Part shown: piece by piece, positions 19,598 to 26,748 of the stretch | Numbering within the stretch: position 1 is the stretch's first letter | Layout: each line of letters opens with the position of its first letter | Assembly (NCBI GenBank): GCA_951812755.1 | Contig: OX638329.1 | Coordinates: 2,031,339 to 2,095,338 of the forward strand | DNA from: an uncultured Latescibacterota bacterium | Lineage (GTDB): Bacteria; Latescibacterota; UBA2968 | Direction: 5' to 3' | DNA length: 64,000 bases | Notes under the pieces: model-generated | Told to the model about the DNA's origin: nothing | Database searches by the model: none | The model's input: the letters and a program-made list of their open reading frames with translations, nothing else | Position numbers and translations under genes: made by a program

Positions 19598-20401
19598 CTA
19601 CATAGAACCCCTTGTTTGATACGCATCCGCCCTTGTTTGCCGCGCCGTCTGTTTGTTCTCTTGCCAGTATGCATCAATGGGCGTATCGCGCTTCTGGGGT
19701 GGCGTCCTGAACGTAAGAGTATAAGCCCTTCTCGGCACATCTGTGCGATTGGGCTCTGCATAGTGGAGCATATAACACGCATGGATAGATGCACCACCAG
19801 CCGCAACAGGGCAGGGTACAGCCCGAGCGGCATATTGTTCGGGATCATCAACCTCAAGACCGTGAATGCGCGGATCCCGGTTAATGCTGTGATGCGGCAA
19901 AACATCGAGCTTGTGGCTACCCGGAATAAACTGCAAACAACCCGATTCAACCGTCGCATCGTCCAGCGGCATCCAGAAATTTACGCCTTTGTATGCCAAG
20001 GTGGGATTGTGATACGCCTGATCCTGATGCCACGGCGTTGCCGCACCAATACGCGGCGGTTTGTAAATCATGTGCTCACCATTGCCATCGCGCATATCAG
20101 AACCGAGCAATTGCCGCGCAATCGCCCGCGCATTGGCCAGATAGAGCGTATCCTTCAGCTCGGGCGCAAAACGGCTGGGACCGAGCATTTGCGGAAGGCG
20201 TGGTTGATCATCCTCATCGGTACCCGCCAGATCGAACTGACTCCCCTGATCCCAACCCGTGCGATCCGAAAAAAGCCGATCGTAAATTTCCCGAAGCTGT
20301 TCCACCTCCTCTTCCGTGGTAATCGCATTGAGAACGAGGAACCCATCCTCGTGAAATGAATGAATTTGTTCCTGAGAAAGAGAAATTGTCGGCTCTGGCA
20401 T
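19598..20401 (-). CDS. Phytanoyl-CoA dioxygenase family protein (2 of 6)
   Basis: A 267-residue PhyH-fold Fe(II)/2OG oxygenase with H125 and D127 in TPWHQDQAY, H213 in CYMLHYAEPN and the Arg in RRAYTLTF. The SGCLQFIPGSHK strand is a PhyH hallmark. The ATG at 20401 follows GAGGAGG; an upstream in-frame start at 20446 is rejected. It is divergent from a sulfatase gene at 20636, with a repeat-containing intergenic region between. It heads a two-gene unit with the epimerase. Confidence 0.92.
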   Translation of the reverse strand: MPEPTISLSQEQIHSFHEDGFLVLNAITTEEEVEQLREIYDRLFSDRTGWDQGSQFDLAGTDEDDQPRLPQMLGPSRFAPELKDTLYLANARAIARQLLGSDMRDGNGEHMIYKPPRIGAATPWHQDQAYHNPTLAYKGVNFWMPLDDATVESGCLQFIPGSHKLDVLPHHSINRDPRIHGLEVDDPEQYAARAVPCPVAAGGASIHACYMLHYAEPNRTDVPRRAYTLTFRTPPQKRDTPIDAYWQENKQTARQTRADAYQTRGSM

Positions 20402-20476
20402 CTGCGGCCTCCTCACTATTATTTGTGCGATGCAGAATAATGTCAACAGACCAATTCGTCAAGTTAATCCGTTTTG

Positions 20477-22250: not shown

Positions 22251-23117
22251 ATGCTCACCCAAGAACAAATTGCATTTTATCGCGAGCACGGGTATCTCGG
22301 TGTGGAGAACGTGCTAAGCGAAGACGAGGTCAATGACCTGCGGCGGATAACCGATGAATTTGTGGAAAAATCGCGGGAGGTTACCGAACACACCGAAGTA
22401 TTCGATCTCGAACCCGGGCACACGCCCGAAAATCCAAAACTGAGACGCTTAAAAAGTCCGATCTTGCTACATGAGGTATATCGCAAGACCCTGCATCACG
22501 AGAAAATTTTGGGAATCGTATCGCAATTGATCGGATACGGCCTGCGGTGCAATGGCAACAAACTGAACATGAAACAACCCGGCTATGGCAGCCCGGTCGA
22601 ATGGCATCAGGACTGGGCATTTTATCCACATAGCAATGACGATTTGCTCGCCGTGGGCATAGTGCTGGACGACATGACAGAAGAAAACGGCCCCTTGCTC
22701 GTAATACCCGGCTCGCACAAAGGGCCAGTGTACGACCATCACCTCGACGGCCATTTCTGCGGTGCCGTAACCGACTCCACCTTTAGCGACAAAGGCGCCG
22801 TACCCGTAATGGTAAAAGCAGGCGGCATCACTATCCATCACGTACGCATGCTACACGGGTCAGTATCCAATACATCCGACAAACCCCGCCGACTGCTCCT
22901 ATTTCAATATTGCGCGATCGATGCGTATCCCCTATCGGGCCTGAACAACTGGGATTTGTTCAATGGGACAATCGTGCGCGGTGAACCGACCAACATCCCG
23001 CGCGTGGAAGCCGTACCCGTGCGAATGCCCTGGCCGGCCGCACTCCGAAGCGGATCCATTTACGAATCGCAAACCGTATTAAAAGAAACGAAATTTACCC
23101 AAACACAATACAAATAA
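22251..23117 (+). CDS. Phytanoyl-CoA dioxygenase family protein (3 of 6)
   Basis: A 288-residue PhyH-fold oxygenase: LTQEQIAFYREHGYL at the start, H119 and D121 in VEWHQDWAF, NGPLLVIPGSHKG, H202 in RMLHGSVSN, and Arg in KPRRLLLFQY for 2-oxoglutarate. The ATG at 22251 follows GGAGTAAGAC. It is in the same direction as the sulfatase, 142 bp downstream of it, with the dispersed repeat in the gap. The WHQD form is typical of family members acting on larger substrates, but the substrate is not known. Confidence 0.92.
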   Translation: MLTQEQIAFYREHGYLGVENVLSEDEVNDLRRITDEFVEKSREVTEHTEVFDLEPGHTPENPKLRRLKSPILLHEVYRKTLHHEKILGIVSQLIGYGLRCNGNKLNMKQPGYGSPVEWHQDWAFYPHSNDDLLAVGIVLDDMTEENGPLLVIPGSHKGPVYDHHLDGHFCGAVTDSTFSDKGAVPVMVKAGGITIHHVRMLHGSVSNTSDKPRRLLLFQYCAIDAYPLSGLNNWDLFNGTIVRGEPTNIPRVEAVPVRMPWPAALRSGSIYESQTVLKETKFTQTQYK

Positions 23118-24398: not shown

Positions 24399-25217
24399 AT
24401 GAACCAATTGAGCAAATCCATGCGGCAACAGTGGCAGGAGCAGGGGTATTTACATCTCAAAAATGTAATCCCCAGAGACGAAGCAGCGGGTTATCTCGAC
24501 GCGGCCAATGAAGTAATCGCGAAATACGAAGCCAAATATCCCGAAGTGCGCGAAAAAGGCGTCTATACCATCATCCAAACGCTCTTCCGAACGAGTCGGA
24601 TCGACGGGTTAATGGACCACCCCAACTTATTTGGCATCATCCTCGACCTGATGGGACCGTATCTCCAGATCATGGGATCGCAAATTTACGTGCGCTATCC
24701 AAATGACAAATCCGATAACTTGATCGGCTGGCACACCGATGCCGGACGCTCACTGGCACAAATCCGGGTCACGCCAGACAGTTTGCCATTGAACTTCAAA
24801 ATTCAGTTTTTCCTCACCGATATTCCACACGAGAATTGTGCAAACTTCTGTCTGGTGCCCGGCAGCCATCGCCGCCCAATGCCCAAAGGATCCCGCAATG
24901 AGACACCGCCCGGCGCAATACAACTCATTGCAGAAGCAGGAGACTGCGCGATCTTCCCCAACACTATGTGGCACGCGGTCGCGCCAAATCACACAGACGT
25001 CGTGCGGCGCAGCATCACTTTCCGATATGGACAGATGTGGTGCAGACCCTACGATTACGAAAAATGTCCCGAAGAAGTGCTATCCCGCATGACACCGCGC
25101 CGCCGCCGATTAATGGGCGATATGGGTGAAAAATATACGGCGACAGATTATTTCAAACCGTCCGATCAAATAAAAGTCATCATGGATGGCCTGGACTTTA
25201 AGTGTCCCAATGCTTAA
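24399..25217 (+). CDS. Phytanoyl-CoA dioxygenase family protein (4 of 6)
   Basis: A 272-residue PhyH-fold oxygenase with H112 and D114 in LIGWHTDAGRS, the strand NFCLVPGSHRRP, H192 in NTMWHAVAPNHTD and Arg in RRSITFRYG. It has a His-Thr-Asp iron motif rather than the HQD of the 19.6 and 22.3 kb paralogues, so it belongs to another subfamily. The ATG at 24399 has only AGGAGC upstream. An intrinsic terminator follows directly at 25233. Confidence 0.9.
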   Translation: MNQLSKSMRQQWQEQGYLHLKNVIPRDEAAGYLDAANEVIAKYEAKYPEVREKGVYTIIQTLFRTSRIDGLMDHPNLFGIILDLMGPYLQIMGSQIYVRYPNDKSDNLIGWHTDAGRSLAQIRVTPDSLPLNFKIQFFLTDIPHENCANFCLVPGSHRRPMPKGSRNETPPGAIQLIAEAGDCAIFPNTMWHAVAPNHTDVVRRSITFRYGQMWCRPYDYEKCPEEVLSRMTPRRRRLMGDMGEKYTATDYFKPSDQIKVIMDGLDFKCPNA

Positions 25218-25263: not shown

Positions 25264-25341
25264 ATATCCATACGACACTTTTGGGATGCAGACTCGTCTT
25301 TATAGTAAAACACGCGTGGATTGATTTCTTGTGGAGCATTC

Positions 25342-26748
25342 GTGGAACAAATTGAAGACAGAGCACTCATTGCTCAAATTCTGGACGGCGACCGCAAAGC
25401 ATTCGCAATTCTGGTGCAACGCTATTCGCGATATGTGTACGCCCAAATTGCCCGATCTGTGCGACTGGTTGACGATGTAGAAGACCTGGTCCAAATCGTA
25501 TTTGTCAAAGTGTTCGAAAATCTGCACCAACTTCGCAAACCCGACCGATTTAGACCCTGGTTACACAGCATCATACGCAACGCCGTCAACTCCCATCATC
25601 GCCGTCGAGCCGTGCAATTGCGGTTAGAAGAAACATTTTATCCAGAACCTGCAACGCACGATGAAGAAGAAATCAAACAGGTTGTGCGAGCTGCGCTTCG
25701 CATCCTATCGGCTGAACACCGCCAGGTAATCGCCCATCACTATTTCAAAGGGTATTCTTATGCGGAAACAGCCGACCTCCTGAACCTCACGGTAGAAACC
25801 GTGCGCGGGCGTCTGAGGCGTGCGCGTGTAAAATTGAAAGGAGAGTTACACAAAATGTCGGATATTCAAACACAAACGACTGAACTGGACCGCGCGGACA
25901 TGGACGCGCTCAAAAAAGTAATCGGTTTTGTAAGCGACGACGAAAAACGCCCGATCTTGCAGGGCGTATGTCTCGACACAGGCGGTCGCGCGACTGCGAC
26001 CAACGGGCATATCATGATCATTCGCACCTTAAAAAGCCTCTCGGAATTGGCCGCCCCAATTGTCCTCGGACCCTGGTCAGGCATTCAATTGCCCGAACAA
26101 GCCACATTGAAAATTGCGGAAGAGACCGCGGAAATCCAGAGCAATGGCACAACCCTTCAGGTACCCTTAATCGAAGGTCCTTATGTCAAATACGAACAGG
26201 TCATTCCTCAGGAAGATCCCGCAATGCGAGTTTCCATCTCCTCGGATCTTCTGGCACCTGCACTGGACTTACTACAAGACTTCATGGAAACGCGGCATCC
26301 AGAATCAGGCCCGCAGGGGTGGCAATATCGTCCTCGGGTAGATCTGCATCTCTCGCCACTGACCCAGACCATAACCTTTCTCACATCCCGAGATACGGGA
26401 TATACCCGCGAAGACAATGGCAAATTCCAATATCTCCTCGACGCGAAAGATGACGACTCTCCAGGAGGCGTTGCGGATTGGATATTTCAAGTACCGCTCA
26501 ATGCCAAATTTGAAACACCATCAGAAGACACACCCAGGTTGAACGGGTCTGAGGAACGCCCCGTTGTACACCGCTTTGCCGTGAACTTCGCATATCTCAA
26601 ACAGATTCTGCATGCTCTGGACTTTGAAGACAGCGATGAAATCACAATGGAATTTAGAGAACAGAGCAAAGCGATTATCTTGCGCACACCCCTGAATGCG
26701 GAATGGCTGGCATTGCTAATGCCGTTGAGACTGAAGTCAAAGGATTAA
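25342..26748 (+). CDS. ECF sigma factor fused to a DNA polymerase III beta-clamp-like region
   Basis: About 468 residues. Residues 8-90 are sigma region 2 (LIAQILDGDRKAFAILVQRYS, DVEDLVQIVFVKVFENLHQL, FRPWLHSIIRNAVNSHHRRR). Residues 120-170 are region 4 (AEHRQVIAHHYFKGYSYAETADLL...VRGRLRRAR). From about 180 the sequence matches sliding-clamp domains II-III: VIGFVSDDEKRPILQGVCLD, TATNGH, VPLIEGPYVKYEQVIP, then FAVNFAYLKQILHAL and MPLRL at the end. The first clamp domain is missing. I start at GTG 25342 with GGAG at 25333. M172 (25855) has its own AAAGGAGAG upstream, so a clamp-only product is possible. Residues about 401-411 derive from a dispersed repeat. I know of no such fusion. Function is inferred only: tethering transcription initiation to replication or repair proteins is possible, or the clamp part may act as an anti-sigma-like or dimerising module. 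Confidence 0.8.
   Translation: MEQIEDRALIAQILDGDRKAFAILVQRYSRYVYAQIARSVRLVDDVEDLVQIVFVKVFENLHQLRKPDRFRPWLHSIIRNAVNSHHRRRAVQLRLEETFYPEPATHDEEEIKQVVRAALRILSAEHRQVIAHHYFKGYSYAETADLLNLTVETVRGRLRRARVKLKGELHKMSDIQTQTTELDRADMDALKKVIGFVSDDEKRPILQGVCLDTGGRATATNGHIMIIRTLKSLSELAAPIVLGPWSGIQLPEQATLKIAEETAEIQSNGTTLQVPLIEGPYVKYEQVIPQEDPAMRVSISSDLLAPALDLLQDFMETRHPESGPQGWQYRPRVDLHLSPLTQTITFLTSRDTGYTREDNGKFQYLLDAKDDDSPGGVADWIFQVPLNAKFETPSEDTPRLNGSEERPVVHRFAVNFAYLKQILHALDFEDSDEITMEFREQSKAIILRTPLNAEWLALLMPLRLKSKD
26542..26575 (+). repeat. Diverged dispersed repeat inside the sigma-clamp gene
   Basis: 26 of 34 bases match the 13444-13477 copy of the AACTGGCCTGAG...GTTGTACACCGCT module. It encodes NGSEERPVVHR within the clamp-like region, without breaking the frame. 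Confidence 0.6.

Follow-up and report, generated by a model that had tools for sequence, protein, structure and literature searches.

The window analysed here is a 64,000-nucleotide stretch of the single-contig, 6.53-Mb genome of an uncultured Latescibacterota bacterium, and the gene of interest (25342..26748, + strand, 468 aa, GTG start) joins an ECF sigma factor to a part resembling domains II and III of the sliding clamp DnaN. A TTG at 25321 would be an alternative start and has no SD sequence in front of it (duplex energy +0.7 kcal/mol). The sigma part is made up of sigma-70 region 2 (25411..25611, + strand, residues 24-90; PF04542, E=6e-13) and region 4 (25681..25836, + strand, residues 114-165; PF08281, E=2e-12), and since both of these models, as well as TIGR02937 (E=3e-27), exceed their cut-offs, the protein belongs to the ECF class. 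No stop codon lies between the ECF domain and the DnaN-like part, and the gene ends with the stop codon at 26746-26748. The glutamate codons of the gene are nearly all GAA (8% GAG, as against 46% in the long ORFs of the window), and codon usage in this genome appears uneven. Upstream lie three dioxygenase-like genes (19598-20446, 22251-23117 and 24399-25217; phytanoyl-CoA type, judged from their translations), clustered with sulfatase-like genes.

The DnaN-like part comprises 297 aa (25855..26745, + strand). Its domain II-like stretch (25903..26265, + strand, clamp-part residues 17-137) is recognized through TIGR00663, which matches the clamp part with an E of 1e-12 that is under the curated cut-off of that model, and the end of domain III (26578..26730, + strand) gives a weak, below-cut-off match to PF02768 together with a profile match to beta-clamp chains. 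Besides the resemblance to domains II and III, the part shares with the DnaN beta clamp the terminal MP-L/M-R motif, here LLMPLRL. When 17 clamp parts were combined into a profile, it aligned with domains II and III of beta clamps of solved structure (e.g. chain residues 128-266 and 311-366), and a profile-profile comparison against eight of the class's DnaN proteins aligned their second and third domains with a probability of 99% and an identity of 30%; Pfam, applied to the 17 clamp parts, gives weak matches to domain III in nine and to domain II in four. The motif EGPYVxYEQVIPQ is common to the window's protein and the DnaN of its own genome. When the three-domain set was searched, domain I (PF00712) was matched by two of the 17 members at E up to 0.1 (best 0.066), and the profile alignments to beta clamps contain no significant domain I stretch, the match beginning at about residue 128. 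Of the three domains that mark DnaN (PF00712, PF02767, PF02768), the protein thus matches II and III, weakly by Pfam and clearly by profile. Because the match, read with the limits of the beta-clamp domains in mind, is restricted to II and III, the ECF sigma domain occupies the place of domain I, which was not found in the window's protein. The full-length product would then be an ECF sigma factor with the C-terminal domains II and III of a duplicated DnaN. Among the 47 genomes of the class that were searched the clamp part was not found standing alone, the other matches being DnaN-sized frames of 388-461 aa. A structure prediction for the window's protein and five relatives (91-94% identity) had a mean pLDDT of 34 and was set aside.

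Where the two parts meet, an SD-like AAAGGAGAG (25837..25845, + strand), contained in codons K166-G167-E168, is followed by an in-frame ATG (25855..25857, + strand) that encodes Met172. An earlier note on this DNA had placed a putative internal start here, and its coordinates are exact: the ATG is residue 172, it is in frame with the GTG at 25342, and 297 codons of clamp-like sequence run from it up to the stop. The junction SD is readable in this organism, because the 16S rRNA tail of the genome is CACCTCCTTT, and its duplex energy is -9.0 kcal/mol, compared with -5.6 at the gene's own GTG start. Of the 386 ATGs that lie internally and in frame within 32 of the window's long ORFs, 9 have an equally strong SD, and the other six internal methionines of the fusion gene have SD energies of -0.3 to -4.3; the junction SD exceeds chance for an internal ATG. 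The GGAG-ATG spacing is 11 nt, compared with 5-8 nt at the eight GGAG sites among the twelve strongest starts listed.

A homologue search of 60 genomes (the window's own included) and 47 genomes of the class yielded 23 loci with the sigma-clamp fusion, counting that of the window, which belong to six genera within a single class of Latescibacterota: nine loci in g1, which is the window's genus, seven in g13, four in g6 and one each in g7, g9 and g12. Identity among them goes down to about 35% (36-94% over the matched part for the 22 relatives), and the additional domain after region 4 is conserved in these 22 as a C-terminal extension. Six named relatives were matched by the clamp part, five of them filed under Candidatus Latescibacterota and one under Gemmatimonadota. 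The nine clamp-fusion representatives in a tree of 97 sigma domains form one clade (100/99), for which one fusion event followed by descent would be the simplest reading. The fusion is absent from G008, a single-contig genome of the window's genus in which the matches are other ECFs and DnaN only, and at E 1e-5 the six genera have no neighbouring ORF (100 aa or longer) in common. Phages gave three weak matches only, to portions of the clamp module, and none of 145 plasmid records covers 80% of the query, the 15 listed covering 35-38%, in the sigma part.

Some of the loci are irregular. L025 (G001:C101:7812-8099), from a relative in the window's genus, retains only about 96 N-terminal residues of the protein before a new end; of the 24 loci that gave a high-scoring match it was the one left out, as truncated. 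L011 (G019), whose clamp part is interrupted by an in-frame TAG where its relatives have Tyr or Phe and which is either a decayed gene or an assembly error, is absent from alignments A1 and A2; L010, which starts at a contig end and has a TAA among its first codons, was dropped from A2 and from the g1 set used for synonymous conservation. Four g1 loci have, and five lack, a 12-residue insertion in the clamp part (26536-26571, RLNGSEERPVVH).

The junction ATG is present in 23 of 23 fusions, and so is an upstream GGAG, 9-11 nt away (11 nt in the nine g1 loci, 9 nt elsewhere), so that an in-frame ATG with an SD is conserved throughout. The linker residues that flank the junction Met differ between genera. 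L013 has a second GGAG immediately before the ATG. The earlier note had named, as the outcome that would tell against an internal start, homologues that conserve the linker without the SD and ATG; that outcome did not occur, because both are kept in every fusion. The same note had also allowed that the junction might record the loss of a stop between two former genes. On such a view the ATG would be the old start of a clamp-like gene once adjacent to the sigma gene. The SD and ATG do stand exactly where such a second gene would begin, but a junction stop is found in 0 of the 23 loci, the clamp part is without DnaN domain I, no free copy was found in the 47 class genomes, and Met occupies the same column in ECFs that carry unrelated modules. 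With a clamp part that is similar to the second and third domains of the phylum's own DnaN and that was not found by itself, this suggestion is poorly supported and we consider it highly improbable.

Conservation may also arise from the protein sequence. We compared the junction with a null of synonymous codons encoding the same amino acids, substituting the codon usage of a related genome in some cases; these codon tests were devised in the course of the analysis and not beforehand. Within the clamp family the SD does not depart from this null (genus means 0.16, 0.60, 0.52, 0.22, 0.29 and 0.33; Fisher p=0.31-0.32), and its letters are the expected product of L-K-x-E codons. Synonymous conservation of the SD codons shows no excess in g1 and g13 and some in g6: windows at least as conserved as the SD number 287 of 436 in eight g1 loci, 215 of 428 in seven g13 loci and 70 of 445 in four g6 loci. 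We accordingly dropped conservation of the SD as proof of initiation, as neither the codon nulls nor within-genus synonymous conservation singles it out in the clamp family. The invariant Met was likewise dropped as sufficient proof, Met, Leu, Val or Ile being present at that column in 61 of 76 other extended ECFs.

The codons that follow the ATG behave differently from those that precede it. In the 23 fusions, codons +1 to +12 (25858..25893 in the window, + strand) have a mean GC3 percentile of 0.22 and a fold percentile of 0.32 relative to the synonymous null, six other windows being at 0.42 or above. The GC3 percentile is below 0.3 in all six genera (g1 0.22, g7 0.03, g9 0.20, g6 0.18, g13 0.25, g12 0.28; sign test p=0.031, Fisher p=0.036); the fold signal 3' of the ATG, taken alone at genus level in the clamp family, is not significant (p=0.13).

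For a wider comparison we used ECFs of the phylum with at least 80 residues past the junction, a sample drawn from among the matches listed, of which 81 were tried and 76 kept (L250, L252, L253, L254 and L255 were too short or cut, and L117 was left out of the first control table). The junction column of these 76 proteins contains M in 44, L in 10, V in 4, I in 3 and other residues in 15. Over codons +1 to +12, the 44 with Met have percentiles of 0.29 for GC3 and 0.31 for folding, whereas the 32 without it have 0.57 and 0.54. The difference persists when the sequences are grouped: 34 Met groups have mean percentiles of 0.29 for GC3 (p<1e-4) and 0.32 for structure (p=0.0006), and 19 non-Met groups have 0.58 and 0.51 over the same 12 codons. 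The dip is restricted to these codons, flanking windows being at 0.39 or above, and does not appear after 441 other internal ATGs of extended ECFs and fusions (0.53, 0.47); in 22 of the window's long ORFs a similar but smaller dip follows the first ATG (0.37, 0.44).

In this wider set the SD, too, is stronger than the amino acids require. The 34 Met groups (formed at 70% identity) have a mean percentile of 0.29 against the synonymous null (Fisher p=1e-5 with genome usage, 2e-4 with own-gene usage), while 23 non-Met groups average 0.53 (p=0.51 and 0.43, respectively), and the two differ by Mann-Whitney test (p=0.001). With a coarser grouping of 25 clusters at 50% identity, in which clusters holding both Met and non-Met members were counted on both sides, the Fisher p is 0.003 for 14 Met clusters and 0.17 for 15 non-Met clusters. 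SD strength, GC3 and downstream folding are therefore all three significant across the wider extended-ECF set. Three g1 paralogues with the junction LKRRLLV-M provide a pronounced case, with AGG AGG, an SD of -11.8 and a codon-null p of 0.002-0.005, and for the g6 relative L112 the SD codon-null p is ~0.05. In the paralogue L078 (G000:C1:2106510-2107103) the junction SD is AAAAGGAGG. Of 18 loci encoding ECFs without an extension, one has Met at the column and another has an SD of -7 or better.

These results bear on the view that the junction is a by-product of protein sequence, in which Met172 is a hydrophobic residue of a helix running on from region 4 into the extension, the SD-like letters come from Lys-x-Glu codons, and no initiation takes place. 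The Met may be a helix residue, because related ECFs have Leu, Ile or Val there, and the agreement of the clamp-family SD with the codon null, the lack of extra synonymous conservation in g1 and g13 and the position of the clamp clade on the tree, beside four extended ECFs that have no Met (86/92), all fit such a view. What it does not account for is that the codon signature after the ATG is missing where the residue is not Met, or that the paralogues keep an SD with other amino acids; on balance we regard it as rather unlikely. A further proposal, that ribosomes are slowed or paused by the SD-like letters and the AT-rich codons as they pass from one domain to the next, which would help co-translational folding, the ATG being incidental, is in keeping with a site at a domain boundary followed by low GC3, but it leaves the ATG in 23 of 23 fusions unexplained, and non-Met junctions of the same protein class average no dip (0.57), which makes it improbable.

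On the best tree the junction Met must have been gained or lost a minimum of 10-11 times, six of these changes falling on well-supported branches. Six phylogenetically independent pairs lean the expected way, too few for significance. For proteins with a VEETL-like linker, the mean GC3 is 0.55 in 10 non-Met loci and 0.27 in 25 Met loci; six non-Met g1 loci with this linker also have lowish GC3 (0.20-0.53), which is a partial warning against reading the junction as a start. Non-Met junctions might be thought to use a start nearby, but 44 ATGs located -3 to +25 codons from them have mean percentiles of 0.44 for folding, 0.47 for GC3 and 0.50 for SD, and therefore there is no general displaced start. 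At individual non-Met junctions (L241, L243 and L246; L092, L103, L109, L115 and L124), an ATG lying 14 or 7 codons past the junction is preceded by a strong SD.

The modules behind the junction are diverse. A Pfam scan of ten of them identified a 3-keto-disaccharide hydrolase, TPR (two), FliG_C, HATPase_c with TPR, HEAT, ankyrin and FliM, and gave no match for two of the ten. The loci L027, L136, L030, L078, L130 and L104 encode ECFs fused to FliG_C, FliM, HATPase_c, 3-keto-disaccharide hydrolase, ankyrin and HEAT modules, and the ECF-FliG and ECF-FliM fusions look unusual.

Taken together, the feature is real and conserved, and an internal start seems a better explanation of it than accident or scar; it is likely that initiation at the ATG at 25855 gives rise to a free clamp fragment alongside the sigma-clamp protein, and to this reading we assign a probability of roughly 0.6. 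The suggestion in the earlier note of two products from this gene is in this way upheld indirectly, by the universal ATG and GGAG and by a start-like codon choice after the ATG, all of it sequence evidence. One mRNA would direct the synthesis of two proteins, full-length sigma-clamp and, by in-frame initiation, the 297-aa module by itself, which might be a partner of the complete protein or compete with it. Lacking domain I, the free module would be unable to close a normal beta ring. The groove in which the beta clamp receives clamp-binding peptides is formed by domains II and III, and the free module would therefore carry the ligand-groove region. By analogy, the free clamp fragment may bind the full-length sigma-clamp protein or compete with it.

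Proteins with alternative in-frame starts are known in bacteria. The proteoform pairs of SsaQ, CcmM, ClpB and InfB arise in this manner, both forms of SsaQ are required for an effective secretion system, the short form of CcmM has a structural role of its own, and alternative starts have SD contexts stronger than the annotated ones, according to the portions of PMC11005335 drawn on here. The window's gene resembles such pairs in having an in-frame start, an SD stronger than that of the annotated start and, as proposed, a short form of the same protein. It differs in that those pairs are known from ribosome profiling or experiment and the present case from sequence alone, and in that the shorter product here would be a piece of clamp freed from its sigma factor. 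Extended ECFs, as described in the consulted sections of PMC8999054, have the same layout as the window's protein, sigma2-sigma4 with a fused C-terminal module; their C-terminal extensions can inhibit or be needed for activity, and some may derive from fused anti-sigma factors. Here, the module is DnaN II+III, and a junction start that frees the module is not mentioned in those sections. Among the matches listed from open-licence full texts, no published sigma-clamp fusion or junction start was evident from titles or the beginnings of abstracts. A functional parallel is T4 late transcription, in which the specificity factor gp55 works with the sliding clamp gp45 (PMC7892883 and PMC2988020, as far as the parts consulted go). 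It is an analogy and not a homology, as gp55 and gp45 are separate proteins and the clamp is whole, whereas the window's gene encodes one polypeptide with two of the three beta-clamp domains.

The same junction start seems to be present in many of the phylum's other extended ECFs, where different modules follow it, and may be a device that extended ECF sigma factors of this group use generally. We would tentatively extend this to a model in which the end of region 4 forms a fixed joint of SD and ATG for different modules, each gene yielding both the fusion and a free module that tunes the sigma factor by binding or by competition for ligand; the clamp case would couple sigma to clamp-binding proteins. 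If this is true, a group of one-component sigma regulators would carry their own free regulatory domain, supplied by translation from the one gene and not by a separate anti-sigma gene, and sliding-clamp domains would here be linked covalently to a bacterial sigma factor, as a single-chain counterpart of the sigma-clamp partnership of T4. The control of many extended ECF factors would then become directly testable through changes to the start codon.
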